In this document: positions 334 to 60,969 of the stretch, one piece after another
Position numbering within the stretch: the stretch's first letter is position 1
How the letters are laid out: every line of letters begins with the position of its first letter
Assembly: GCA_963575745.1 (NCBI GenBank)
Contig: CAUYUJ010018725.1
Coordinates: forward strand, 26,001-90,000
Direction of reading: 5' to 3'
Length of the DNA stretch: 64,000 nucleotides
Source of the DNA: Prorocentrum cordatum
Taxonomy: Eukaryota; Sar; Dinophyceae; Prorocentrales; Prorocentraceae
Made by a program: the position numbers and the translations under genes
The notes under the pieces: model-generated
Database searches by the model: none
Told to the model about the DNA's origin: nothing
The model's input: the letters and a program-made list of their open reading frames with translations, nothing else

Positions 334-364
334 AGCACGCAGATGATCAAACCCACAGTGTGCT

Positions 365-3300
365 GTGTCGTCTTCCGGCGGTCCACACGGAGGCTGCTGC
401 TTCGCGTGCCGGGGCCGCCGCCACCTACGGGTGGGGGAGGCCGCCGCCCCGCCCTCGCTCTCTCTCTCTCCTCGCTCGCCACTCCTCCTCCTCCCTCCTC
501 CTCCTCCTCCTCCTCCTCCTCCTCCTCCTCCTCCTCCTCCTCCTCCTCGTTCCTCCTCCTCGAGCACGCTGAAGCAGCACAAATGGCAAGGTATTGTTTC
601 TCCAGCATACCCCACGACCTACGTGAAGAAGGCAGGTGGCATCGTTCTGGGTATCCGTCAGCATCATTGTTGGTCCTCTTATCGCCACTTGTCGGACGAC
701 CCTGACAACACGATCGGTTTAGTTGACGTCAACAGCAAGCAGAAGCTATCGGGGCCTTTGTCCTTCAAAGATGTGGTGGCGGTCGAGTGGAAGATCGCCA
801 GAGTCCCGCTGCTAGTAATTGGAGCTTATTTGACTGTCTCAGTGGGGTTGGAAGCACCCATCAATGTCTCAAAGCTTCTCACTATTTCGACGCTGTTGGA
901 CAATCATGCGGGGCCTTGGATCATCATGGGAGATTTCAACGCTACCCCCCTGGAGATGGCCTCATGGATCCGCAAGTGGAATGGGCATTTTTATCACCCA
1001 CCTGGCATCACCCACACGTCCACGAGGGGCAAGGGCCAGCGCATCATCGACTATGCTGTGGCTTCTCAGGACTTCTCTACACTTTTTCATGATGCGATCC
1101 AGTTGGATGCTGAGGGTGGTGACCACTACGGCATGATTTTGGAGCTGAATGTTTCTGCACAACAGTCTGCACGTCGAGTCTTGGACCTACCGAAGATGTT
1201 CCTACCACCGCTACCCACCAAGCTAAAAGGTGACCCCAACAGCAAACGGTCGAGAAAGAAATTGGAGGTGGAGCGACGACGGCAACAACGTGCTCTGGAA
1301 CACTCAGAGGATCTCGAGCAAGAACTTCCTGAACCCGAGTCTGAAGACGAGGAGATTTTGGCGCAACCTCAGCAGCCCAACTCGTGCACGAAATACCCAG
1401 AGGAGGCTCGCAAGTTTCTACATCGAGATTTTTTCGACTTCGACTCCGAGGCGCTTCAGCAGATGTGGCAGTCGCATATTTATGACCACAAGATTTCTGA
1501 GGTCAAGCCTGTAGTTCAGGACTGCCACCCAGCCAAGTATTTAGAGTGGAGAGTTGAAGATCTGAATAAGCTTTGGACCACCATCGACAACAACACTCTC
1601 CAGCACTGTGAGTGGACCTTACCGCCAGATTGGATACAAGACAGCCTCTCGTACAAGTATGACCCCGAGACCGCTATCGAGCTGGGATCAGACTACGGAA
1701 GATTTACGTCCATTTTTGAGAATTTTCTGTGTCGTGTTCTTGAGGTACCACCAGATCGAGCTTGGCATTACAAAGGTCGTGGAGTTGCGAGGGAATTCAA
1801 AACTCTGCCGATATCAGCACCCGCGCCAACAAGAGCGCATTCAGATACGTCAATCAAGTGGTGGCTGCAAGTTTCTGGTTGGATTCAGGAGCTTATTCGA
1901 GTCTCTAGTGGGACCCAGCACCACTTCGAGGAGTTCTCTACTGCAGCAGGTGGTGACTCCTCCCCTCCTCCCCCCGTTTTGCTCAGCCCAGTCTCGAAAA
2001 AACAAGTCAGGACAGCATCGAGAAAAGACTTCTTGGTGCACAGGTTGGCACAGGCTCCTGCTGACATGCCACTTTCAGGTTTCGGCCAGGTAATAGGCAG
2101 AGATCGGCAGGACTGGGCCAGTACACTTCTTAACATTCACAATATACCGAGAGAGGCTCTCATTACGATGGGAGCATCAGCGGATAAGATCGCAGCAGCC
2201 CTGGAGCGTAAGGCGGCCAAGGAGAGCTACAGCGCTTTTCAATCGTGGATTCGTGATTCTTTTGCTCAAGGCTGTGGGAAGTTACATAGGTACGTCAAGC
2301 CCAAGACGCGCGTCGAGACAGAGTACCGCGACTTGAAAGGAAGTTCCACGAGCCTCAAGGATATTTTGGTCCAGAAGAGTCAGCTATGGCAACGCAAGTG
2401 GGCTTCCAAAATTTTGTCAGTGCAAAGGTTGTTCCAACTCCTTCGTCGGGCTCATGCTAAGGCAGCAGCACAACCCTGGCCAGCCCTGGAGCCTGAGCAG
2501 ATCGCCATCACAGTCAAGCAGATCAACTCCAGCAAGGCCGCAGGCATCGAGCAACTGGGCGGTACCCTCAAGTATTTACCTCCAGCTGGCATTGCTCACT
2601 TGACGTGGTTTTTGAATGAATGCGAACGTCGAGGAGGCTGGCCTTGGCAGATTCAGACTGCTATTGTTGCTCTTTTGAGGAAAGGCGCTGACACTGATCG
2701 CTCAATTGGTCTTATCCCAGATTTGATACGCTTGTGGAGCTCAGCCAGACAGATTTTTCCTTCCGCATGGGTCGAGCAGATGGCTGGCCAGTGGGACAAT
2801 GCGATCAGAGGCTCTTCCTGCTTGCGTGTCGGACTTCTACGAGCTTTTTCTGACGAAGCCATCCGCATGGGGCCCAAGCACACCGTCTCGGCCAGTCTTT
2901 TGTGGGACATCGACAGTTTCTACGACTCGTTAGAGTACGAGCGCCTGTTTGAGCAGGGCTTGGCCCTGGATTTTCCGCCCTTGATGTTGCTGATGGAAGG
3001 GCTGGCTCATCTCATAGTTAGAGTTTTTCGTGAAGCAGGGTGCTTTTCACCGCCAGTCCAGGCCAGCAAGTCCATCATCGCAGGAGCTCGCCGAGGGGTC
3101 GATTTTGGAAGATTTTATCTCTACAGTATCCTTGAAGCTGTGCACAACAAATACTCACCGTCGGTCAGCACGTCGTCTTGGGTTGATGATATCACTCAGT
3201 ATGCGTATGGGTCCGTCAGGTTCCTCTCCCAGGCGCTCACCAAGGCTGGGGTTCTCTTGGGCAGGCTCTGCAACAAGGCGCACTTGAGTATCGCTAGCAA

Positions 3301-5560
3301 GAGCAGGATCATCGCGGGGGACCCTGATTTAGCAAAGGACATTGCGCGCCAGTTGGCACAGCACAACATTAAGATCACTGTGGCACAGAAAGCAGTCGAT
3401 TTAGGCACGGACAGAGGCACGAACATGCGAGCACGGCCTAAAGCAGCAGCACGTCGCAAAGCAGCTTGGAAGCAAGTAGGCCGAGCTCGAAAGCTTATTG
3501 GATCAGGCAGAACAGGCAGAGCAGCAGCACGGCGTGTGATACATCGAGGATGTTATGCAAAAGTTCAGTATGATGCAGCTGTGTACGGTATGAGCCCTTC
3601 AGCAGTGCAGGCTTGGCGCAGAGCTATAGGAGGCACTTTCACTCTGTCGGTCCGGGGCAGGTGCCTCGACACTCTTTTACAGCTGGAGCTTGGAGATCAA
3701 GATCCAGCAATCTCGCAGGTTTTTAAGATGCTCGACAGCTGGATGGCCATTCTTGCGTCAGGAGCTGAAGCACGAGCCTTTGCAGCACGAGATTGGTCGC
3801 AGCACGTGGCTAAGGCTAGAGAGATTCCTAAGCATCGATGGCGCAGAATCACAGGCCCCACTAGAGCTGTAGTAAATACCCTTCTGGACATCAACTGGGA
3901 CCCCATTGGACCTTGGCATTGGGTTTCTGATCTTGGGAACGTCTATCAGGCTACTCCAGAGGTTCTTGAAGCTGGTCCACTAGATCTAGATGATATCCGC
4001 CAAGACCTAGCCGATTCAGTTCGTCGGGTTCTTTGGAAGCGAGCAGCAAAACACTATGAGAGCGCTGATGTTGCTAACGGAGTAGACCTAACTGATGTAC
4101 GACAGCAGCTACGACGGGCTAGAGATAAAGACCAGCTCAAGTGGGCAGGAGCTTTAGTCAACGTTTGCTGTGGTGGTCAGTGGGCTAGGGAGAGAATTCA
4201 AAGCATCATCAACCCGCCTGACTTTTCTGTTCTTTGTGATCGCTGTGATGGTGGACGACCAGAGTCTACCTTCCACCGAATTTGGGAATGTCCCGCGAAC
4301 GACGCCTTGCCCTCGACCACCAGCATCGAGGCTTTTGTGCACCGTGCTCGCACCCAGGTGGATTCACAGCCGTCAGTGTGGCTACGAGGCCTCACTCCTT
4401 CGTCGTGGACACAAGTTTCGCAGCCGCCCGACGAGGCGGACATTTTTGTGCACAGCCACGGCTTCTTCCCCGACGGCGCAGACCTGATCGTCGGCGCAGG
4501 TGGTGCCTCAGGGGGTAAATATTCGGACCAGGCCAGATTCAGGAGAGTGTCTTGGGCTTATGTCGTCTTCGAGGAATTCGACCTAGCGAACCCAGCTCCA
4601 TCCTTTGCCTTGTCAAGGGTGTCCTCGGGAGCCACTTGGGGACCCCAGACCATCAATCATGGCGAGATGATAGCGCTCTTGAGGTTCCTGGAGGAGGCCC
4701 CTGTGGGCCGACCACTCGTCTTCGTCACGGACTCGTCGTATGTCCAGAAAAACGTCTGCAAGGTCCTCTTGGATTTCTTCCCTGCTGGATTTAGGAACGA
4801 GTGGCGTCGAATTCAGCGGCTTCTTCAAGAGAAGCCGACCACCATCATCAAGATCGAGTCGCACATGACTCCAGAGCAGGCAGCAGAGAAAAAGGAGCTC
4901 GTCTTTGCGTGGGTTGGCAACAAGGCAGCCGATGAGTTGGCTGAGAACACGGCCAAGAACATTCAGTTGCAGGCGGGGGAGGTGGAGGCGGTCCAGATTT
5001 CTGAGGCCTTGACGCGTGCTGTGAGAATTCGGGCTTGTGAAGTTTTCCTCTCGGGATTTTCGGAGGCCTCTGGAGACATTCCCCAGGCCCCTAGAGCTCG
5101 TAAGAAGGCCAAAGCCAAGCCGAAGCCAGCCGTCCCTCCTCCTCCTCCTCGAGCCTTCAACCCTCGCCCCAAGCTAGCCAAACAGCTTAGGGAGTCAGCG
5201 CATAATATGATTCCTGTAGGAGAGGGCCCCGGCTCGAGGCTCTTTTGCAATTCGTGTTGTTCGGTCATTTCTGTGAACTCGCACGGAAATATTCCGTCCC
5301 AGGAGTTTCTCGCCTCTCCGTGTGTTTCTGCGAAACCCCGTTCGGGTTTCGAGGGAGCGAAGTCTCTCCACAATGTGTACATTGGTGCCAGGTATGTTGA
5401 CCCGTCTCATGATATGGTCATGTCAGCCAAGGGTACCTACATATGCCTGACCTGCGGCTCCCACGCCATAAGAGCGGGTCAGAATCTCTTCAAAGAATGC
5501 AAGAAGGCCACGTCGTCTGGGTCGGCCTATCTTGCTAAATTCACAAGAGGGGAAGTCTAG
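365..5560 (+). CDS. LINE-like polyprotein: endonuclease, reverse transcriptase, RNase H, Cys-rich tail
   Basis: An open frame of 1731 codons. An endonuclease/exonuclease/phosphatase (EEP) domain is marked by GDFN (residues 189-192), IIDYAVAS (D229) and GDHYG (D253, H254). The reverse transcriptase shows a KAAG fingers motif, motif A LLWDIDSFYDSL (D848), a motif B-like GARRGVDFG and motif C WVDD (D941, D942). An RNase H domain follows, with E1434 (NHGEM), D1456 (VTDSS) and D1523 (NKAADELAENTA). The tail has two CxxC pairs (C1628/C1631, C1694/C1697), possibly a zinc knuckle. This order fits a non-LTR retrotransposon ORF2 that nicks DNA and copies its own RNA. Oddities: residues 1 to about 66 come from GC-rich and TCC-repeat DNA and are unlikely to be native; the N-terminal EEP strand with the catalytic Asn and Glu is missing, so the element is 5' truncated or uses an upstream exon; and the first RNase H Asp looks replaced (HSHG). 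The uninterrupted frame suggests a fairly recent copy. Confidence 0.88.
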   Translation: MSSSGGPHGGCCFACRGRRHLRVGEAAAPPSLSLSPRSPLLLLPPPPPPPPPPPPPPPPPPRSSSSSTLKQHKWQGIVSPAYPTTYVKKAGGIVLGIRQHHCWSSYRHLSDDPDNTIGLVDVNSKQKLSGPLSFKDVVAVEWKIARVPLLVIGAYLTVSVGLEAPINVSKLLTISTLLDNHAGPWIIMGDFNATPLEMASWIRKWNGHFYHPPGITHTSTRGKGQRIIDYAVASQDFSTLFHDAIQLDAEGGDHYGMILELNVSAQQSARRVLDLPKMFLPPLPTKLKGDPNSKRSRKKLEVERRRQQRALEHSEDLEQELPEPESEDEEILAQPQQPNSCTKYPEEARKFLHRDFFDFDSEALQQMWQSHIYDHKISEVKPVVQDCHPAKYLEWRVEDLNKLWTTIDNNTLQHCEWTLPPDWIQDSLSYKYDPETAIELGSDYGRFTSIFENFLCRVLEVPPDRAWHYKGRGVAREFKTLPISAPAPTRAHSDTSIKWWLQVSGWIQELIRVSSGTQHHFEEFSTAAGGDSSPPPPVLLSPVSKKQVRTASRKDFLVHRLAQAPADMPLSGFGQVIGRDRQDWASTLLNIHNIPREALITMGASADKIAAALERKAAKESYSAFQSWIRDSFAQGCGKLHRYVKPKTRVETEYRDLKGSSTSLKDILVQKSQLWQRKWASKILSVQRLFQLLRRAHAKAAAQPWPALEPEQIAITVKQINSSKAAGIEQLGGTLKYLPPAGIAHLTWFLNECERRGGWPWQIQTAIVALLRKGADTDRSIGLIPDLIRLWSSARQIFPSAWVEQMAGQWDNAIRGSSCLRVGLLRAFSDEAIRMGPKHTVSASLLWDIDSFYDSLEYERLFEQGLALDFPPLMLLMEGLAHLIVRVFREAGCFSPPVQASKSIIAGARRGVDFGRFYLYSILEAVHNKYSPSVSTSSWVDDITQYAYGSVRFLSQALTKAGVLLGRLCNKAHLSIASKSRIIAGDPDLAKDIARQLAQHNIKITVAQKAVDLGTDRGTNMRARPKAAARRKAAWKQVGRARKLIGSGRTGRAAARRVIHRGCYAKVQYDAAVYGMSPSAVQAWRRAIGGTFTLSVRGRCLDTLLQLELGDQDPAISQVFKMLDSWMAILASGAEARAFAARDWSQHVAKAREIPKHRWRRITGPTRAVVNTLLDINWDPIGPWHWVSDLGNVYQATPEVLEAGPLDLDDIRQDLADSVRRVLWKRAAKHYESADVANGVDLTDVRQQLRRARDKDQLKWAGALVNVCCGGQWARERIQSIINPPDFSVLCDRCDGGRPESTFHRIWECPANDALPSTTSIEAFVHRARTQVDSQPSVWLRGLTPSSWTQVSQPPDEADIFVHSHGFFPDGADLIVGAGGASGGKYSDQARFRRVSWAYVVFEEFDLANPAPSFALSRVSSGATWGPQTINHGEMIALLRFLEEAPVGRPLVFVTDSSYVQKNVCKVLLDFFPAGFRNEWRRIQRLLQEKPTTIIKIESHMTPEQAAEKKELVFAWVGNKAADELAENTAKNIQLQAGEVEAVQISEALTRAVRIRACEVFLSGFSEASGDIPQAPRARKKAKAKPKPAVPPPPPRAFNPRPKLAKQLRESAHNMIPVGEGPGSRLFCNSCCSVISVNSHGNIPSQEFLASPCVSAKPRSGFEGAKSLHNVYIGARYVDPSHDMVMSAKGTYICLTCGSHAIRAGQNLFKECKKATSSGSAYLAKFTRGEV
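479..567 (+). repeat. TCC microsatellite / polypyrimidine tract
   Basis: An almost pure TCC tract sits immediately upstream of the first recognisable LINE residues and ends in CTCGAG. It could act as a polypyrimidine tract for a 3' splice site feeding the retroelement frame. That role is inference; the repeat itself is seen directly. Confidence 0.8.
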
Positions 5561-9340: not shown

Positions 9341-9520
9341 CTCCTCCTCCTCCTCCTCGTCCTCCTCGTCCTCCTCCTCGACCTCCTCCTCCTCCTCCTC
9401 TTCCTCCTCCTCCACCTCCTCCTCCTCCTCCCTCTTGCCCCCATCCTCATCCTCCTCCTCCTCCTTCTCCTCCTCCTCCTCCTCCCCTTCCCCCTCCTCC
9501 TGCTCCTCCTCCGCCTCCCC
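9341..9520 (+). repeat. TCC microsatellite
   Basis: Near-pure TCC with occasional TCG, TTC and ACC interruptions. The poly-Ser and poly-Glu open frames on the two strands are products of the repeat. Confidence 0.85.
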
Positions 9521-39904: not shown

Positions 39905-40413
39905 GACCGCCCGCCGCTCATCCTGGAGAGACTTCTCAATGGTTTTCCAAGAGTGTTTGAAGGATTTGGGAGGCACCGCCTCTCCGGGCTTCCCATTGCC
40001 CAAGACGGCCCAAGAGGGCTCCAATACGGCCCAAGAGGACCCCCAGGGAAGCTCCAGAGGCTCCCGAGCCACGGTTCACTGTCTGTCGCAATCCAAGTCA
40101 GAACGCACCCAAGGGCGAGGTCGAGAGAGCAGCGGTGGCAGTACGGCGGGGACGTGTGCTGAGGAATGTGCCCCAGAGGCTTCAGACCATGGAGCATTCC
40201 TTGTCTGATGTGGGCGGTGGTGATATCCATGGCCAATCCACGACTGGAGTTCCACCAGCTCGCAGACTCTGGATTCCTTACCCAGTGGTTCCTTCTCCAA
40301 TGCCCTCGCCGTACCTTTCGTGGTGCCCCCCCCCCCCCCCGAGGTGGCGCTGCTCGGGCCGCTCGCGGCGCGGGACGGCCTGCCCCCGTGGCGCGGGGCT
40401 CGCAGGAGCCGAA
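39905..40413. other. Downstream of the PPR gene; contains family T fragment
   Basis: About 40060-40140 carries AAGTCAGAACGCACCCAAGGGCG and AGCAGCGGTGGCAGTACGG, a weak family T match. No further gene. Confidence 0.4.
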
Positions 40414-40490
40414 GCACAGCGGGGGCCCATGCCAACAAGCACCCTGCCTGCCTCCAGGGTGCCAAACCCTCCGAAGGGCTTAGGCGACCC

Positions 40491-40907
40491 GTCCTCCTCC
40501 TCCTCCTCCTCCCCTCCTCCTCCTCCTCCTCCTCCTCCTCCTCCTCCCCTCCTCCCTCCTCCTTCCCCTCTTCCTCCTCCTCCTTCCTCCTCTTCTCCCT
40601 CTCCTCTCCTCCTCTCCTCCTCCTCTCCTCCTCCTCCTCCTCCTCCTCCTCCTCCTCCTCCTCCTCCCTCCCTCCTCCTCCACCCTCCTCCTCCTCCTCC
40701 TCCTCCTCCTCCTCCTCCTCCTCCTCCTCCCTCTCCTCCTTCCCCTCCCCCTCTTCCCCACCCTCCTCCCTCCTCCTCCCTCCTCCTCCTCCTCCTCCTT
40801 CCATCCCTCCTCTTCCCCTCCTCCTCCTCCTCCTCCTCTTCCTCCTCCTCCTCCCTTCTCCTCCTCCTCCTCCTCGTCTTTCTCCTCTTCCTCCTCCTTC
40901 TCCTCCT
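40491..40907 (+). repeat. TCC microsatellite upstream of the spliced leader
   Basis: Over 400 bp of TCC/TTCC. It directly precedes the DinoSL copy and would make a strong polypyrimidine tract for trans-splicing at the AG inside the leader (TCCGTAG|CC). Open frames are poly-Ser/Pro or antisense poly-Glu/Arg. Confidence 0.85.
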
Positions 40908-40944
40908 TCCGTAGCCATTTTGGCTCAAGCCATTTTGGCTCAAG
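40908..40944 (+). other. DinoSL sequence plus truncated second DinoSL (tandem relics)
   Basis: 40908-40929 matches the 22-nt dinoflagellate spliced leader without mismatch (TCCGTAGCC...GGCTCAAG). 40930-40944 is CCATTTTGGCTCAAG, a leader cut exactly after its internal AG. TCCGTAG follows again at 40945-40951, possibly part of a third. No GT donor follows, so this is not an SL RNA gene. It is the known signature of mRNA that was trans-spliced, reverse-transcribed into the genome, transcribed and trans-spliced again. Confidence 0.93.
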
Positions 40945-41122
40945 TCCGTAGCGGGAGGCTCAGCGACTTGAGGGTGGCAAGGGGGAGGTGCGCCCCCACC
41001 TGCGATCCCTGGGCCTTCGTCCAGGTTTTTTTCACACACGGCCTCACGGCCACTCCGCGAGTGTACCTGGTGCCTCACTGGCACAACATCTTCCCGTTCT
41101 GGGTGAGCTCCTGGAGGAGCCC

Positions 41123-42274
41123 ATGGGCAAGGATGCCGCCAAAGGCTACCTTTCTTGCTCAAGCTGCTGTTACCGCTGGAACTGGAAGTCGCGTGACTGT
41201 TGCTTCTCCTGTGGCAATGCGTTGGTCCCCTCGTCGCCGATGCCGTGGCGCCAGGCCAAAGGAGTTTGGTCGCCTGGCGATGATGGTGGTGGCCAACAAG
41301 GGCCCGCGCACCCGCCAGGGACCTGGGCACCCAGCCGCCTGGAGGCACCGAAGGTTTCGACGCCACCGCAGCGAGGGGCGGCCCCGCAACCGACAGTGGC
41401 GGAGATCCTCAAGCAGCTCCAGCAGCATGTCAAGGCGGACGCATGTGCGCAGGAGCTGCAGGCCTTGGTCAGGGTTGTGGCGCCGCCCGCGCCTGCGCAG
41501 CCAGCCCGCGAGCCGCTGTTGGAGGAGACCATCAGTGCGAAGGGAGTGGCGTGCAGGAGGGCGGAGAAGGCCCTGGAGCATGCGGTCCGCCAGGAGGATG
41601 AGGCGCGGCGCTGGCTGGCGGAGTGCAGCCAGAAGACCCAGGAGGCGGCAGTTTGGGCGGTGCAGGCCAAGACTGCCTGGCAAGAGGGGCTCAAGGTCGA
41701 GCTGCAGAAGGCCCGTGGCTCGACGCCTGGTGCGGGGCCTCCGCCAGATGCGGTGCATATGCCGACTGGCTCCCAGATCAACCTGTCGCAGTTGCTGGGG
41801 GAGGAGAGTGGCTTCGAAGGCGTGGAGATCGTGGACGGCGAGGCTCTCGACCTCAGCGAGCTCGAGATTGAAGACGAGGACAAGCAGCGGTGGCTTGCCC
41901 TCAAAAGCAACATGGCGGCGGAGATCCAGAAGGCAATTGTTGCTGCCATCGGGCCCAGCGCTGACAACATTCAGCGGCTCAGAGCTGAAGCCAGAGACAT
42001 GCGGAAACGCTTGTCGGCCAAGCGTGCCCGCCAGTCCGGCCGTGGCGATGGCACCAGTGCCGCCGCCGCCGCCCAGCCTGGGACGCCACCCGCATCGGCG
42101 CCTGGGGCTCCTCCTGCGGCTGGTGCTGCCGTGTCTGGTGCTGAGTTTGCAGTGCCTGAGTCGGCGGCCACGACACCCTCGGGGGGAGCCGACACTCCCA
42201 GCACCCAGGAGCTGCAAGCTGCTGTCGAAGCGGCAAGAGCCAAGCTGGCCGAGGGCAGTGGGTCGGGCCTCTAG
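41123..42274 (+). CDS. ORF1 of DinoSL-headed element: zinc finger plus coiled-coil protein
   Basis: The start chosen is the first ATG after the spliced leader; there is no other ATG in the 178-nt leader region. The 383-residue product has an N-terminal C-x2-C-x4-N-x6-C-x2-C finger (C12, C15, C27, C30), close to the RanBP2-type zinc ribbon, which in known proteins binds RNA or ubiquitin. A long helical, charged middle (about residues 90-330) looks coiled-coil, and the C-terminal quarter is Ala/Pro/Gly/Thr rich. This layout (nucleic-acid-binding motif plus coiled coil, ahead of an endonuclease ORF) resembles LINE ORF1 chaperones. It could instead be a host protein captured as a retrocopy. It ends at TAG 42272. 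Confidence 0.6.
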   Translation: MGKDAAKGYLSCSSCCYRWNWKSRDCCFSCGNALVPSSPMPWRQAKGVWSPGDDGGGQQGPAHPPGTWAPSRLEAPKVSTPPQRGAAPQPTVAEILKQLQQHVKADACAQELQALVRVVAPPAPAQPAREPLLEETISAKGVACRRAEKALEHAVRQEDEARRWLAECSQKTQEAAVWAVQAKTAWQEGLKVELQKARGSTPGAGPPPDAVHMPTGSQINLSQLLGEESGFEGVEIVDGEALDLSELEIEDEDKQRWLALKSNMAAEIQKAIVAAIGPSADNIQRLRAEARDMRKRLSAKRARQSGRGDGTSAAAAAQPGTPPASAPGAPPAAGAAVSGAEFAVPESAATTPSGGADTPSTQELQAAVEAARAKLAEGSGSGL

Positions 42275-42289
42275 GGCTCAGCAGCTGTC

Positions 42290-43260
42290 AGGCAGGTGGC
42301 GCGCGGTTTTTTTCGGGGCTGGCGGCCCCTGGGGAGCCCGTGGAAAGGCTGGTAAATTATTTGGTCGATTGGGGCTGCAGACGTGCAGGTGGTCGAAGCC
42401 CCAAGGTGGAGCGGCCTTGCCCCCTCACCGCATGCGAGGCGGTGGCGCGCTGGTTTTTCGGGGCTGGCGGTCCTTGGGGAGCCCATGGAAGGGCAGACCC
42501 TAAAGGCAGGCAGCGGGTCCTTGATCGATGCCGCAGACGTGCGGGTGGTCGATGCCTTCGATCGGATCCAGCCTCCACCTTGGGCTGCAGACGTGCAGGT
42601 GGTCGAAGCCCCAAGGTGGAGCGGCCTTGCCCCCTCGCCGCATGCGAGGCGGTGGCGCGCTGGTTTTTCGGGGCTGGCGGTCCTTGGGGAGCCCATGGAA
42701 GGGCAGACCCTAAAGGCAGGCAGCGGGTCCTTGATCGATGCCGCAGACGTGCGGGTGGTCGATGCCTTCGATCGGATCCAGCCTCCACCTTGGGCTGCAG
42801 ACGCGCAGGTGGTCGATGCCCCAAGTTGGAGCGGCCTAGCCCCCACGCTGCATACGAGGCGGTGGCGCGCTGGTTATTCGGGGCTGGCGGTCCCTGGGGA
42901 GCCCGTGGAAGGGCAGACCCTAAAGGCAGGCAGCGGGTCTTGGATTGGAGCCGCAGACGAGTGGGTGGCCGATGCCTTCGATCAGACTCAGCCGCCACCC
43001 TGGGCTGCTGACGTGCAGGCGGTCGATGCCCCAGCGTGGGGCGGCCTTGCCCCCTCGCAGCAGCGGAGGCGGCGGCGCGCAGGAGGTTCGGGGCTGGTGG
43101 CCCCTGGGGAGCCCGCTGGAGGGCAGACCCTAAAGGACGGCAGCGGGTCTTGGATCGATGCCGCAGACGTGCGGGTGGCCGAAGCTTTCGATCAGACCCA
43201 GCCTCCTTCCTGGGCTGCAGACGCGCAGATGGTTGATGCCCCAGGTCGGAGAGGCCCTCC
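42290..43260 (+). repeat. In-frame 210-bp tandem repeat, about 4.4 copies
   Basis: GGGGCTGGCGG recurs at 42316, 42461, 42671, 42881 and (variant) 43091. The last four are spaced exactly 210 bp; the first has lost 65 bp. Copies 2 and 3 are nearly identical over the unit. 210 is a multiple of three, so the array encodes 70-residue repeats within ORF2. Confidence 0.88.
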
Positions 43261-45682
43261 ACCCACATCTCGGAGATTGGATTTCCAGCTGGTCAACTAC
43301 AACAGCAGTTCGTGGTCGACCGCTCAGAATCACATGGGAAGGGCCTCGAACGAGAAAGATTGTGTGCTCGATGCCTTATTAAATCAAGAACATAGGCTGG
43401 AACTGGAACAGTTAAAAGCGGCTCGCAGTCGGGGCCACACGGCTGGATACATGTCATGGTTCGCGGAAGCGGCGCGAACGGGAGCGGGGCGCCGAGAGAC
43501 GTCTGGAAGGACGGCCCTCGCAGGTAAGGTTCATTTTGGCAGCAACGGGCATGGGCAGAGCAGCTACTCTGAGAGGCTCTGCATTGTCAAGGTCATGTTG
43601 CACCATTCCTTCCCGTCCATTTTTGTTTCAGTGCACGGCCACACCGCGCTTGGGCGCTCAGGCGCCAACCTTGCGTTTGTAGAGGAGCTTAGGGAAGCGG
43701 TGGCCTTGGTGGGCTGCCCGTTTGTTCTAGGAGCAGACTGGAACATCGATGCGGAGCAGCTGACTACATCCCAATGGGCAGTTCTCCTGGGGGCGACAGT
43801 GGTCAGGCCCCCAGGAGAGTCGAGCCGCAGTAACGGGTGCGACTTTTTTGAGGTCGGCCGCGGTCTCGAATTTCATGGTAGAGAGTGCATTGAGCAGCCT
43901 AACGCGCCAGTTGGGCCTCATTCTGCTGTTGTGCTTCAATTCAAGCAGGTGGCCGGGCAGGCCAATGCTTGGCCGCGAGCGGCGCCTCGTAGTTTCCCGT
44001 TGCCCAAGGATGAAGAGGAGAAGGCCCGCATGCAGTGGGGCCCCAGCCAGCAGTCGCCCCTATTTGACTGGGCTTCGCTCTCGCCCCAACCAGCGATGGA
44101 GCAGGTGTTCGGCGCTGCCGAGTTGACCCGCGGTCGCCCCCATGAGCTTGATGACAAGCAGTTTTGCGGCGGAGCCAAGGGCTGCCAAATTCAGGCAGGG
44201 CCGATAGAAGCAGCGTGGGGTCGGGAGCTGCACAGGCGTTCCCTTCCTGGGACCCAACGCTGGTTGTCTTTGAGGCGTTTGACCTTAGTGGATCTGAAGG
44301 CGGCGACAGACGGCAGACGGCGGCGCCTGCTTGACTCGGCCAGGCCGCTGCAGGACCTGCTGGTGGAGGTTGAGGAACCTCGGCTCGCGGGACTGACGGT
44401 GGCTGAACTTTTTCAAGGCCTAGGGGGTCCCAGTAGCGTAGGCTTTGTGAATCCCTTTCAGTGTGCAGTGGACAGTAGAGTGCAGCAGGAGGCGGCGGAA
44501 GGCCGAAAGAGATGGACAACGTGGGCTCGGTCGGCGGTCGGGCGTCGAGGTCGGGGGGCTCACAAATGCTCGAAAGGCCCCGCTCAGCCTCCTTTGCAAG
44601 TCCTTGAGGACGAGGATCTCACTGTGCCAGTAAGAGGTCCCAGGCCGCTTGTCGGGCAGGCGGGACTCGTTCGCACTTTGCGTGATTGGGAGCTCAAGGT
44701 TGAAGGACAAGCGGCGCCTCTTTGGAAAGAAACGTTCCATGAAGGAGCGCCCGATCTGGTAAGTTTCTGTAAGGTGGCGGCCCACACGGCGGTGACTGTG
44801 ATGCGCGAAGGGCGTATCAGGCACTGTGAGTGGGAGGGCAGTGCCGAAGCCGATCGACTTTCGGATTTAAGTGCTGAGCCATGCGGTTGCCCGTCCAATG
44901 TTGTCATGATGTCCAAAGGCATGCTCCAGGTCGCACGCCTTTTCCTGCAGTCCATGTGCAGGGCTGAAGCCCCATGTGTGCAGGAAGGCAGGTTGGGCAA
45001 TGTCGGAGTCCAGGGGCTCACAGAGATCTCCCTGGAAGGGAGATCCGACTTTGAGGAGGCTCTTGAGGCGGTGTGGTGGCGGGGGGTGGGTGGTGCTGAT
45101 TGTGCTGCTGCTCCTGCTCCTCCTCCCGACGCTCCTCAACTGTCCTCGAGACCTCCATCAGAGCCCTTGGCGCCCGTGCTGCTGGCGATGGCAGAGGGTG
45201 CCCGTCAGGCCCCTGCTTTCATCGGAGGGCTTGGTTTGCTGCAGCTAGCGGATGAGGATAAACAGCCTCCCATTCTTTTTGGTTCGACCTACGGAGAGTA
45301 TGCCACGGTGTCTGCGGGATCCAGAGGCCTGCGTCAGGGCTGTGGAGGGTCCCAGCAGACCTTGGCTGACCTAGGCAGGAAGAGCTCTTGGGCAGTCAGC
45401 AAGGACAAGCACCCCAGCAGGTCTCTCAAACTGGGCTCCTGGCTTTCTCCTGGGGCTTGGGCGCGAGAGCTGGTGGGGGGGGTCTCGGAGCCCAAGAAGG
45501 CCCAGATGGGAGATGTTGGGGTGGCCAGAGCCACTTCGGACCATCATGCACGTGCAGGTTTGTGCCTGGCCGATGTCCTGCAAGCGTTCGGGCCTAATGA
45601 GTTCGAAGCCGCTGAGTTGGGACTGAGGCGATGTAAACGAGGCCCAGACAATGATCTGGAGGAGGAAGAACTGGGCGGTTAG
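42485..45682 (+). CDS. ORF2 of DinoSL-headed element: 70-residue repeats plus EEP endonuclease, no RT
   Basis: In the same frame as ORF1, separated by TAG 42272 and TAA 42353; the frame is open from 42356 and the first ATG is 42485 (about 1065 residues). The N-terminal quarter is a run of 70-residue repeats. Then comes an endonuclease/exonuclease/phosphatase-like domain: LLNQEHRL, GADWN (D418, N420), GCDFF (D453) and PHSA (H479, with Pro where the usual Asp precedes His). The remaining 580 residues show no reverse transcriptase motif, no YVDD-like box and no RNase H. So the unit looks like a LINE-derived or LINE-parasitic transcript carrying only the nicking domain. The product may also be translated by stop readthrough or frameshift from ORF1. 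Confidence 0.6.
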   Translation: MEGQTLKAGSGSLIDAADVRVVDAFDRIQPPPWAADVQVVEAPRWSGLAPSPHARRWRAGFSGLAVLGEPMEGQTLKAGSGSLIDAADVRVVDAFDRIQPPPWAADAQVVDAPSWSGLAPTLHTRRWRAGYSGLAVPGEPVEGQTLKAGSGSWIGAADEWVADAFDQTQPPPWAADVQAVDAPAWGGLAPSQQRRRRRAGGSGLVAPGEPAGGQTLKDGSGSWIDAADVRVAEAFDQTQPPSWAADAQMVDAPGRRGPPPTSRRLDFQLVNYNSSSWSTAQNHMGRASNEKDCVLDALLNQEHRLELEQLKAARSRGHTAGYMSWFAEAARTGAGRRETSGRTALAGKVHFGSNGHGQSSYSERLCIVKVMLHHSFPSIFVSVHGHTALGRSGANLAFVEELREAVALVGCPFVLGADWNIDAEQLTTSQWAVLLGATVVRPPGESSRSNGCDFFEVGRGLEFHGRECIEQPNAPVGPHSAVVLQFKQVAGQANAWPRAAPRSFPLPKDEEEKARMQWGPSQQSPLFDWASLSPQPAMEQVFGAAELTRGRPHELDDKQFCGGAKGCQIQAGPIEAAWGRELHRRSLPGTQRWLSLRRLTLVDLKAATDGRRRRLLDSARPLQDLLVEVEEPRLAGLTVAELFQGLGGPSSVGFVNPFQCAVDSRVQQEAAEGRKRWTTWARSAVGRRGRGAHKCSKGPAQPPLQVLEDEDLTVPVRGPRPLVGQAGLVRTLRDWELKVEGQAAPLWKETFHEGAPDLVSFCKVAAHTAVTVMREGRIRHCEWEGSAEADRLSDLSAEPCGCPSNVVMMSKGMLQVARLFLQSMCRAEAPCVQEGRLGNVGVQGLTEISLEGRSDFEEALEAVWWRGVGGADCAAAPAPPPDAPQLSSRPPSEPLAPVLLAMAEGARQAPAFIGGLGLLQLADEDKQPPILFGSTYGEYATVSAGSRGLRQGCGGSQQTLADLGRKSSWAVSKDKHPSRSLKLGSWLSPGAWARELVGGVSEPKKAQMGDVGVARATSDHHARAGLCLADVLQAFGPNEFEAAELGLRRCKRGPDNDLEEEELGG

Positions 45683-45740: not shown

Positions 45741-45828
45741 TGACAAAAAGTTCCCCCCTGATGGGCCCCCCTGGGTTCTTTGGACCGTCGGACTTCCTCC
45801 CCCCCCTTTCCCCTCAGTGGCGTGCGAT

Positions 45829-46028
45829 CCTCCTTCTCCTCCTCCTCTTTCTCCCTCTCTTCCTCCTCCTCCTCCTCCTCCTCCTCCTCCTCCTCCTCCT
45901 CCTCCTCCTCCCTCTCCTCCTCCCCCTCCCCCTCTTCCACCTCCTCCTCCGCCTCCCTCCTCCTCCTCCTCCTCCTCCTGCTCCTCCCTCCTCCTCCTCC
46001 TCCTCCTCCTCCTCCTCCTCCTCCTCCT
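45829..46028 (+). repeat. TCC microsatellite downstream of the retroposed unit
   Basis: About 200 bp of TCC, the right-hand counterpart of the 40491-40907 tract in the same orientation. Confidence 0.85.
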
Positions 46029-58742: not shown

Positions 58743-60969
58743 GGTCTGGCGACGATGGGAGATTGCACCGAGTTCAATCGAGCTGAAAGTGCGACGTCTC
58801 AAACTTCTTCAGGGCGCCGCAGCACACCCCGACGACTCCAAACAGATGGTCTCGGTCCTGTTCGGTGAACTCCAGATTGAGCATCACCTACGTGAACTCG
58901 AATTGCCAGTGGCACCACGCACGTTAGACGATGACGGCTACATCAACCCCGACGCGCACCTCATCGCTCGACAGTTTTCCACGGATATACAGGACATGCT
59001 GGTCCTGGACATCGCCGAGCCTCTGGAATACCTGGACTGGCGAGGCAACATGGTGGAGTTGTTTACAGAGCCCGACGTAGCAGAAGCTTTCTGTGGCGTC
59101 GACGTGAGCATGATGAGGGCAGCTTACCTTCGGCGCGCCTTTGCGCCTCCTGGAGCTCTTGCAGAGCCCCCCTCAGAAGTGGCCCCGTCTGACGAGGCCG
59201 AACTGTTCATCTGCACGCTGAAAACGTCCGAGGGTATCGCATGCATGTCCAAGTGGATGAGCGCACGAGCACTATATGCACACCAGCGGGGACTCGCACC
59301 AGGGGGAGAACATGGTATGTGCTGCTTATTATCACAGCTCACGATCACGAACGAGTGCATCATATGCGGTACTACATTCCCTACACGTGTGGGAGCACAA
59401 CATCATATCACAGCCGCATGGAAATCGCACATATGTCGCACGGATCAGACATGGGCACCATATCCTATCACGTCCCCGAAGACACTAACATGCCCAGTAT
59501 GCTACCAGTCCTTCGAAGATTACAGCACGATGCGCGCACACCTCCGTAGCCATCTACCTCAGGGAGCACTGGGGACCCATACGCTCTCACTGCCACAGCC
59601 TACGCCAACGCCTACACCAGCACCGCAGCCAGACATCGACGATGGCACCAGGCACGGCGAGCGTCCCGACACCAGCTCGAGCGGGTTGGCGTGCCCCCAT
59701 GGAGTCCTCAGCAGCGTCTGGGAATGGTGGAGCGCGCGGAAGGCCAGAACGCTCACGGAGCCAGCCACGCAAGGGTCAGGACGGAGCAATGGACGAGGAC
59801 CCGAAGTTCGACCCCAGGAAGGTGACCCTCGCTCGAGTTCGGCGCCGCCGAGGAGCAGGCTTCAAGCCGAAGCAGGCGCCGACGATGTCCCAGGAGATGA
59901 AAGACCTGCTGCTCATCATCCTCCGTGCGACGCACCAGGACACGAAGCAGGTTCGCGAGCTCAAGGGCTGCATCGTCACGACAGTGAAAGTGGAAGACAA
60001 GGATCCCTTGGTCGAGGCCATCGAGTTGGAGAACCGCAACTACGCACGCATGATCCGCCAAGAAGGCGGCAATCACGGAAAGGGCCCCCCTGCCCCAGGC
60101 GCAGCTATGGCGATGATCGAGACTCTCGCCAGCCTGGACATCGGTGCGAAGTGCAAGGAGGAGCTCACTACGGCGTTCCAGCAGATCAGCGAGCTCGATG
60201 CTTTCCAGGCCCAGGACATGTTCCCGATCTGCAGGGTCGAGAAAGCGTACAAGAGCGGCTCGGCGAAGGTCATGTTCACTTGCCGCGACCCCAGCATCCG
60301 CCAGAAGATCATGGCCGCTCTCAACAATGCGAACAAGCCAGCCTGTCTCGGACCAGCCCCAGCGGGCTTCGTGGAGGACGAGCTGGCGCTCTACATGGAT
60401 GCGATGATGAACGACGAGGCGTGAGGACTACCAGTATGACAAACGACCCTGATCTGGAAATCGACGGCTACTCAATACGGCGCCTCAAAGCGACTTCCTC
60501 CCATGAAGAAGTGCTCCCCCGACTGCCGTTTGTGAGTGCCTCTTCAGACGCTATGGTTCGATTTGCTCTCAGTGGGAATTCCCAAGCTGGTGCATGCAGT
60601 GGCTTGGACACTAGGATTGCACGACCGCCGACCTGTGCACCACCACCTCCCACGGCACAGAGTGCAGCTACTTCGACTTCTGAGGCTGACGCCACCCGCT
60701 CCAGCTCCGCACCTCCTGCTCGAGATAGGCTCGAGAGGAAAAGGCCAGCTGTTCTAGATGATCGGGGTCCCAGGTCTCGGACTCCCACGAGTAGACCCCC
60801 TACTCCTGCGCCCGCTCGTACTTCCTCTGCTCGTGCCCCCATGCCGCCCTCTCACCCCTCTCGCTCCCCCCCCCCAGAAGCGCGCACCAACCTACTCACC
60901 GCTAGGGGAGGGGGGCGAAGCCGAGGGCCCCAGGGGAAAGCTCGGGGTCGGGGTCGCCACCCTCGGTGA
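58582..60969 (+). CDS. LINE RT thumb/connection plus two C2H2 fingers, then frame overlap
   Basis: The first part (AGAYYLHTTDYKKLDTTLG, then a basic KLRAMLKGKGC segment and a Trp-containing helix) is the usual region following a LINE RT. Two zinc fingers follow: C259-x2-C262 ... HH-x7-H, atypical, and C304-x2-C307-x12-H320-x3-H324, classical. From about residue 350 to 610 this frame becomes compositionally biased while another frame (59642-60424) looks coding, so the real product probably ends or shifts near 59640. The last part of this frame is described separately (60436-60969). Confidence 0.55.
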   Translation: MVYEAAISGAGAYYLHTTDYKKLDTTLGKKLRAMLKGKGCIRTRDRYKSISAAEVWRRWEIAPSSIELKVRRLKLLQGAAAHPDDSKQMVSVLFGELQIEHHLRELELPVAPRTLDDDGYINPDAHLIARQFSTDIQDMLVLDIAEPLEYLDWRGNMVELFTEPDVAEAFCGVDVSMMRAAYLRRAFAPPGALAEPPSEVAPSDEAELFICTLKTSEGIACMSKWMSARALYAHQRGLAPGGEHGMCCLLSQLTITNECIICGTTFPTRVGAQHHITAAWKSHICRTDQTWAPYPITSPKTLTCPVCYQSFEDYSTMRAHLRSHLPQGALGTHTLSLPQPTPTPTPAPQPDIDDGTRHGERPDTSSSGLACPHGVLSSVWEWWSARKARTLTEPATQGSGRSNGRGPEVRPQEGDPRSSSAPPRSRLQAEAGADDVPGDERPAAHHPPCDAPGHEAGSRAQGLHRHDSESGRQGSLGRGHRVGEPQLRTHDPPRRRQSRKGPPCPRRSYGDDRDSRQPGHRCEVQGGAHYGVPADQRARCFPGPGHVPDLQGRESVQERLGEGHVHLPRPQHPPEDHGRSQQCEQASLSRTSPSGLRGGRAGALHGCDDERRGVRTTSMTNDPDLEIDGYSIRRLKATSSHEEVLPRLPFVSASSDAMVRFALSGNSQAGACSGLDTRIARPPTCAPPPPTAQSAATSTSEADATRSSSAPPARDRLERKRPAVLDDRGPRSRTPTSRPPTPAPARTSSARAPMPPSHPSRSPPPEARTNLLTARGGGRSRGPQGKARGRGRHPR
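59642..60424 (+). CDS. Unrecognised 260-residue protein overlapping the LINE frame
   Basis: ATG at 59642, TGA at 60422. The composition is balanced, with hydrophobic-charged helices (KDLLLIILRATHQDTKQ, VEAIELENRNYARMI) and an N-terminal Arg/Pro/Ser-rich basic tail. It overlaps the +1-shifted frame of 58582-60969 for its whole length, and the peptide quality favours this frame. It may be a third retroelement ORF or ORF1 of an adjoining element. No named domain was recognised. Confidence 0.5.
   Translation: MAPGTASVPTPARAGWRAPMESSAASGNGGARGRPERSRSQPRKGQDGAMDEDPKFDPRKVTLARVRRRRGAGFKPKQAPTMSQEMKDLLLIILRATHQDTKQVRELKGCIVTTVKVEDKDPLVEAIELENRNYARMIRQEGGNHGKGPPAPGAAMAMIETLASLDIGAKCKEELTTAFQQISELDAFQAQDMFPICRVEKAYKSGSAKVMFTCRDPSIRQKIMAALNNANKPACLGPAPAGFVEDELALYMDAMMNDEA
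60436..60969 (+). CDS. Short unrecognised ORF after the 260-residue protein
   Basis: ATG 11 bp after the previous stop, 177 residues. The first 60 or so are balanced (DPDLEIDGYSIRRLKATSSH), the rest Pro/Ser/Arg rich. PPPTAQSAATSTSE closely resembles PPPTAPSAATSASN at about 57173-57215, so the two stretches share ancestry. Confidence 0.35.
   Translation: MTNDPDLEIDGYSIRRLKATSSHEEVLPRLPFVSASSDAMVRFALSGNSQAGACSGLDTRIARPPTCAPPPPTAQSAATSTSEADATRSSSAPPARDRLERKRPAVLDDRGPRSRTPTSRPPTPAPARTSSARAPMPPSHPSRSPPPEARTNLLTARGGGRSRGPQGKARGRGRHPR

Follow-up and report, generated by a model that had tools for sequence, protein, structure and literature searches.

DinoSL-headed, LINE-derived elements in the genome of Prorocentrum cordatum and their probable copying from trans-spliced mRNA

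Introduction

What does it mean when a dinoflagellate spliced leader (DinoSL), repeated in tandem, stands in genomic DNA at the head of a unit that resembles a LINE rather than a host gene? Such a tandem lies in the 64,000-nucleotide stretch of the Prorocentrum cordatum assembly analyzed here (the window), and a preliminary description proposed that the unit behind it moves as trans-spliced mRNA and gains one leader with each cycle. Recycling of mRNA through DinoSL relic retrogenes was reportedly described by Slamovits and Keeling in 2008. Counts of dinoflagellate retrogenes depend on DinoSL relics upstream of genes; if LINEs carry the leader as well, a part of these relics may mark the heads of LINEs, and LINE machinery would be directly implicated in the copying of trans-spliced mRNA.

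For genes in general, the available sections of four papers (PMC6050394, PMC12014239, PMC3229502, PMC7245778) describe relics without the first seven nucleotides, relics in tandem, and the practice of counting rounds of retroposition by them. As far as those sections go, the retroelement behind dinoflagellate retrogenes is treated as open, and a 2018 review within this group leans to LTR elements. LINEs and relic leaders are linked near endogenous RNA-virus genes in the accessible part of another study (PMC10235124). The listings and excerpts of the open-licence PMC literature contained no mention of dinoflagellate LINEs whose 5′ end is DinoSL.

Results

The full 22-nt leader (TCCGTAGCCATTTTGGCTCAAG) matches exactly at 40908..40929 on the forward strand, at what is probably the 5′ end of an inserted cDNA. 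It is followed directly by an exact 15-nt relic of an older leader cut at its internal AG (CCATTTTGGCTCAAG; 40930..40944, forward strand; TRF period 15) and then by TCCGTAG, which ends at 40951. The 21-nt leader core has one exact match in the window and a second, with 3 mismatches, over the relic, while 0 of 100 dinucleotide shuffles of the window hold this core at 3 mismatches or fewer. An SL RNA gene was considered and rejected as the identity of the tandem: the bases after the two copies are CC and TC, and neither copy is therefore followed by the GT donor of such a gene. The arrangement is exactly as the preliminary description gave it, and its reading of the tandem as the mark of two rounds of trans-splicing and retroposition agrees with the published relic signature. 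From a full leader plus one relic in genomic DNA we infer two insertions, and the element appears to have copied itself back as a leader-bearing message at least twice. Transcripts of this copy, if spliced at the internal AG, would bear two relics behind a new leader; according to the accessible text of PMC12014239, 5% of retrogenes belong to this class. Outside the tandem, the closest resemblance to the leader (TCCGTAGCCATCTACCTCAGGG, 59543-59564) lies within a C2H2 zinc-finger ORF and is probably due to chance.

Two open reading frames follow the leaders on the forward strand. ORF1 (383 aa, 41123..42274) begins at the first ATG downstream of the leaders, at 41123, and has zinc-finger spacing of the type CxxC-x11-CxxC (C-x2-C-x11-C-x2-C, CSSCCYRWNWKSRDCCFSC) close to its start; its open frame of 440 codons is attained in 0 of 300 shuffles. 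A competing frame (40224-42503) is also open across ORF1, and ORF1 is favored because of its GC content by codon position (0.70, 0.57, and 0.75). ORF2 is an open frame of 1108 aa (42356..45682) whose start is possibly the ATG at 43229. It shares one frame with ORF1, with stops between them at 42272-42274 and 42353-42355. Between ORF1 and the endonuclease region described below, TRF identified a 210-bp tandem array of 4.2 copies (42372..43256, forward strand), in which the first two units are 99.5% identical and third-codon-position bias is absent (variable columns 9/18/19). The ORF2 stretch from 43256 to 45682 holds 809 open codons, against a maximum of 429 in 300 shuffles.

The profile-matched part of a LINE-type (APE-like) endonuclease domain lies in ORF2 at 43619..44008 on the forward strand. 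The profile was built from three other LINE proteins, namely P0003 (the LINE at 347-5557 of the window), P0004 (P. cordatum), and P0005, the latter two being the relatives returned when the RT-bearing LINE of the window served as query. Searched against the 1336 open segments of the window with hmmsearch, it matches ORF2 at E 7.1e-12, and the next-best segment, P0003 itself set aside, has E 0.67. BLASTP of the ORF2 endonuclease gives 2e-8 to P0005 and 1e-4 to P0004, and motifs of the catalytic type QEH, ADWN, and H occur in that order by eye. No reverse transcriptase (RT) match was found in the unit by RT profile or tblastn, and the sole RT of the window lies in 347-5557.

Other comparisons of the two ORFs returned little. 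The best BLASTP E-values of ORF1 in a test for kinship with LINE ORF1 proteins were 0.010 and 0.007; ORF2 and its endonuclease part, used as protein queries, found no relatives; Pfam gave nothing over its cut-offs for ORF1 or ORF2; and a search of viral contigs for ORF1, ORF2, and the other LINE of the window found no relatives. Aligned as single sequences with hhalign, the two endonucleases scored no better than shuffles (12.4 versus a mean of 14.2 for 100 of them), two structure predictions were not usable at a mean pLDDT of only 34.5 and 30.8, and no second copy of ORF1/ORF2 was found within the window. The endonuclease match together with the lack of an RT match thus makes the unit LINE-derived, without a recognizable RT, and judging from its sequence this copy looks non-autonomous. 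Of the LINE-like two-ORF unit that had been proposed, the endonuclease and the zinc-finger spacing stand, but since no RT was found the copy is not an ordinary LINE, and its own mobility cannot be shown.

The unit is enclosed by microsatellites. On the forward strand, TRF reports a (TCC)n tract of 137 copies directly adjoining the leader (40492..40907), the probable 5′-side insertion target, and a second (TCC)n tract at 45828..46028, the probable 3′-side target; from these two tracts, the 3′ end of the unit lies near 45828 and its length is near 4.9 kb. The downstream tract is visible by TRF and by a pyrimidine scan, and it fails the strict downstream-tract test described below because its end is irregular. 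There is no poly(A) at the 3′ end of the unit: between 45601 and 46100 no A-run exceeds 5, and AAAAA occurs only once. The 19-mer before the leader recurs in an unrelated TCC tract at 9456, and a target-site duplication is thus indistinguishable from the microsatellite background. Elsewhere in the window, the second LINE (347-5557; EN, RT, and RNase H in a 1737-aa frame) has no leader. Its EN is truncated immediately behind a (TCC)n tract at 475-562, and it looks like a 5′-truncated insertion into the same kind of repeat.

The assembly from which the window was taken (4,128,499,153 bases, 4.13 Gb) contains the exact leader core 14,218 times (7201 + 7017), and the reversed control pattern gave 0 matches in the same whole-genome search. 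The first 48 leader sites in list order, out of 100 listed among the 14,218, were sampled with content ignored; 8 were taken with flanks of up to 3 kb, 20 with 8.5 kb (the long loci), and 20 with 1 kb. These first-listed sites are possibly not representative of all 14,218, and the demand for an exact match favors young copies.

LINE endonuclease or RT matches lie on the sense strand in 15 of the 20 long loci and on the antisense strand in none. With the first profiles, which were built without these loci, EN and/or RT is found downstream on the sense strand in 8 of 20 and on the antisense strand in 0 of 20 (P 0.003). Pfam, applied to the sense strand only, adds six (L014, L016, L020, L022, L032, and L033), with L020 and L032 under its cut-offs. 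The second profiles were built from L014, L015, L016, L020, L022, L024, and L033, and their matches in these seven loci are therefore circular; without them the tally is the eight loci of the first profiles and the six by Pfam. L019 is the sole locus that rests on the second profiles alone, and it was not used in building them. No LINE match was found in the remaining five (L017, L021, L025, L030, and L031), from each of which Pfam covered a single ORF; L030 holds an ORF with a sub-threshold YL1 match. When the window is divided into 8-kb tiles, profile matches occur in 2 of 16, both in LINEs already known, one being the window unit, and the difference from 8 of 20 leader loci is not significant (Fisher P 0.13).

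The open frame that holds the endonuclease starts no more than 101 nt from the leader in seven loci (L016, L018, L020, L023, L024, L029, and L033). In L024 the leader runs straight into the ATG of an ORF that is still open where the fetched piece ends, after at least 2635 residues, and that matches EN, RT, and RNase H. In L028 the endonuclease match of the first profile lies behind a TCC tract at 3.84 kb and may come from a neighboring element; a second-profile RT match lies nearer the leader, in a frame opening 1.34 kb from it. An ATG follows the leader or relic at once or within a few bases in ten sites (L006, L010, L012, L014, L022, L028, L032, L034, L038, and L047). All ten have TCC polarity and, L012 apart, they fall into two groups by their first bases; in several, a hydrophobic segment is visible by eye close to the N-terminus.

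Among the 48 leader loci, the closest endonucleases to that of ORF2 are those of L024 (E 2.5e-15) and then L026 (4.5e-10), and the later, C-terminal part of ORF2 has its sole match in L026 (7.9e-10, 32% of 145 aa). L026 has a leader in (TCC)n, an ORF1 with a CxC/CxxC finger-like pattern, and an endonuclease, and no RT match by the profiles used. This relative bears on the suggestion that TCCGTAG is a third leader trace. Alone the motif says little, as it occurs 6 times in the window versus 3.9 expected and its anchored similarity to the SL is equalled at 233 of about 128,000 positions, the SL's own neighborhood included. By eye, however, the sequence directly 3′ of the L026 leader (TCCGTAGCGG..GCTCAG..ACTTG) runs as it does after the window's relic (TCCGTAGCGGGAGGCTCAGCGACTTG.., 40945..40974, forward strand), and the trace gains weight because L026, with its ORF2-related endonuclease, shares this pattern. 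From the likeness of the two sequences, TCCGTAG, where the unit's own 5′ UTR starts, is probably the shared 5′ end of the family of the window unit and L026, and possibly a decayed first leader, older and once full.

Adjoining microsatellites are common among the sampled leaders. A triplet tract adjoins the leader directly upstream in 35 of 48 sites (TCC 23, GGA 11, TCA 1), against a background of 100 among 7361 other 40-nt windows of the long loci (1.4%). The other 13 have no adjoining TCC/GGA/TCA tract; in five of them (L016, L036, L040, L044, and L045) CA/TA-type repeats end at the leader by eye. In the 14 long loci with adjoining TCC or GGA, which include L021 and L025, both without a LINE match, the first TCC/GGA tract beyond 3.5 kb downstream has the same polarity in 10 and the opposite polarity in 1, and is missing in 3. 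L018 and L020 have a further same-polarity tract closer than 3.5 kb, and a looser purine/pyrimidine scan also finds same-polarity tracts in L021, L023, and L033, for which the strict test gave none, none, and opposite, respectively. Sites alike in their first post-leader bases often share a target (groups of six TCC, three TCC, two GGA, and three CA/TA-type); the exceptions are one mixed group of three and one pair of GGA with another sequence. Within the long loci the link between microsatellite and LINE is weak (13/15 versus 2/5, P 0.07, tallied by hand).

The number of leaders per site does not follow the proposed scheme. A 15-nt relic follows the leader exactly in 5 of the 48 sites and within three edits in 4, and is found at neither level in 39. 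By eye, more decayed leaders may be present in four of the 39 (L011, L023, L026, and L035), so single leaders are somewhat fewer than this count. LINE matches occur in 5 (L014, L019, L027, L055, and L056) of the 9 relic sites, all nine of which were examined with long flanks, and in L055 the leader and an exact relic are followed by CCGTTCTGGCCCAGG, which resembles an older decayed relic. Leader-headed LINEs thus mostly lack a clear relic, and the claim that a leader is gained with each cycle, making the stack a generation count, is not supported. Two accounts would fit: with the terminal CAAG as acceptor the old leader would be replaced, or else most copies would stem from few masters.

Discussion

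The leader-relic pattern is already known from dinoflagellate mRNA recycling; the LINE setting is new. We consider it likely, though well short of certain, that in this genome LINE mRNA bearing the leader is the template, and that the window unit arose as one of these copies. To the same degree, the unit from 40908 to about 45828 is probably a full-length insertion into (TCC)n of the trans-spliced mRNA of a LINE-derived element. Under this scheme a LINE copy would be transcribed, and its pre-mRNA would receive DinoSL by trans-splicing. The whole mRNA would then be copied at a nicked microsatellite, in a presumably target-primed step, by the RT of the element or of a relative, and the leader would become the 5′ end of the new copy. 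The inserted leader would in turn supply the splice acceptor for the following round. With the AG at nucleotide 7 as acceptor a 15-nt relic would remain, as in the window, whereas with the terminal CAAG the leader would be replaced and the stack would stay at one. RT-less cousins, such as the window unit, may be carried in trans by the LINE machinery. The proposal that the element moves as trans-spliced mRNA gains from the LINE domains 3′ of the leader in most long loci, but the window copy, having no RT, does not demonstrate self-movement.

Ordinary mRNA recycling could account for the same tandem if abundant trans-spliced mRNAs are retroposed in trans, a LINE-derived passenger among them by chance, and LINEs normally move otherwise. 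Such recycling is known for host genes at large in the available sections of the retrogene papers (PMC6050394, PMC12014239, PMC3229502, PMC7245778). The window copy without an RT match would suit it, as would the 5 of 20 leader loci without a LINE match and the sub-threshold YL1 ORF of L030. A chance passenger accords poorly, however, with sense-strand LINE matches in 15 of 20 leader loci and with endonuclease frames that begin within 101 nt of the leader in seven of them (L016, L018, L020, L023, L024, L029, and L033), and we regard this account as unlikely. Another rival reading is that only one retroposition took place and the relic is a 15-bp duplication by replication slippage within a single leader. 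Perfect short tandem duplications do occur elsewhere in the window (48464, period 14; 61635, period 21). Against slippage, the duplication boundary coincides with the relic boundary given in the accessible text of PMC12014239, where the first 7 nt are lost, and the identical exact relic is present in 5 of 48 sampled sites, which makes slippage very unlikely.

The setting of the leader can likewise be read without retroposition into a target. The (TCC)n tract might be only a polypyrimidine tract for trans-splicing, selected at a functional gene and saying nothing of insertion, and TCC directly upstream of CCGTAG would indeed make a good acceptor, as 23 of 48 sites are built. In 11 of 48, however, the tract on the leader strand is the purine repeat (GGA)n, which points to an insertion target rather than to a polypyrimidine tract alone, and in 10 of 14 loci the first tract met downstream has the same polarity; this explanation is highly improbable. 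LINEs of the CRE/NeSL type insert inside the SL exon, and the SL gene resumes on the far side of the element. The window unit was rejected as such an insertion, having a microsatellite on its 5′ side, (TCC)n on its 3′ side, and a complete leader at one end only. More generally, a LINE that targets SL exons (CRE/SLACS or NeSL type) would take its leader from the target and not from mRNA, and LINEs directed at SL exons are reported in the available text of PMC4640811. Here the complete leader stands between microsatellite and element, no GT donor follows it in the window, and GT follows the leader in just 2 of 48 sites (L029 and L033), both LINE-bearing; an origin of the leader from the target is barely conceivable.

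The reading may extend to whole families of dinoflagellate LINEs, and we put the chances of this at about even. These families would have no 5′ end of their own; a host-supplied, self-renewing 22-nt leader would mark every full-length insertion and bring the next acceptor. Each family would favor its own microsatellites, RT-less cousins would be carried along thanks to the shared 5′ end, and stacks would form only when the internal AG is used. If the leader does head LINEs, it would be an exact label of full-length LINE insertions, and the choice of acceptor, to replace or to stack, would be legible in the DNA.

The unit can be compared with several known systems. It shares with DinoSL relic retrogenes, as presented in the accessible literature, a genomic DinoSL plus a 15-nt truncated relic and two rounds of trans-splicing and reintegration; it differs in that its cargo is LINE-derived and not a host gene, in its microsatellite insertion, and in that LINEs are the main bearers of exact leaders in the sampled loci. 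Dinoflagellate APE-type LINEs (P0004 and window 347-5557) have a homologous endonuclease, and P0004, like the window unit, has by eye a cysteine-rich and then a helical-looking region before EN; in contrast, the window unit has no RT match, and the LINE at 347-5557 lacks a leader and the first part of EN. Insertion into simple repeats is also described for microsatellite-targeting non-LTR elements such as the (TG)n-specific Togen, although the lineages covered in the available text have a restriction-like endonuclease (PMC4640811), whereas the elements here combine an APE-like endonuclease, mainly TCC/GGA repeats, and a spliced-leader 5′ end. Transposon RNAs in Hydra likewise use host SL trans-splicing, but the leaders are reported there, in the sections available, on transcripts and not fixed as genomic 5′ ends of LINE copies (PMC12220107). 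The trypanosomatid L1Tc/ingi elements are LINEs in a host that trans-splices its mRNA, and they differ in that an internal promoter (Pr77) gives unspliced transcripts, according to the accessible part of PMC8190864.

DinoSL sequences were also observed in contigs from other sources. An SL RNA-like gene lies inside rDNA on JAKUNN010000063.1 (4334-4354, minus strand), where DinoSL followed by GT is located in the 28S-18S spacer of a eukaryotic rDNA repeat; the contig is filed under a Dehalococcoidia MAG, which is thus contaminated. On CAJXDJ010000191.1 (1-60), (TCA)n and then an exact DinoSL stand at one end of a MAG contig that looks bacterial elsewhere; a chimeric join may be the cause. The IMG/VR contig IMGVR_UViG_3300045993_001077 is AT-rich, with flanks of 14-19% GC and a gene with a GT41 glycosyltransferase match, and carries two exact DinoSL cores (1800-2913, minus strand). 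One of these cores opens an island of 49% GC that includes a 254-aa ORF and looks like a DinoSL-tagged host cDNA taken up by viral DNA.
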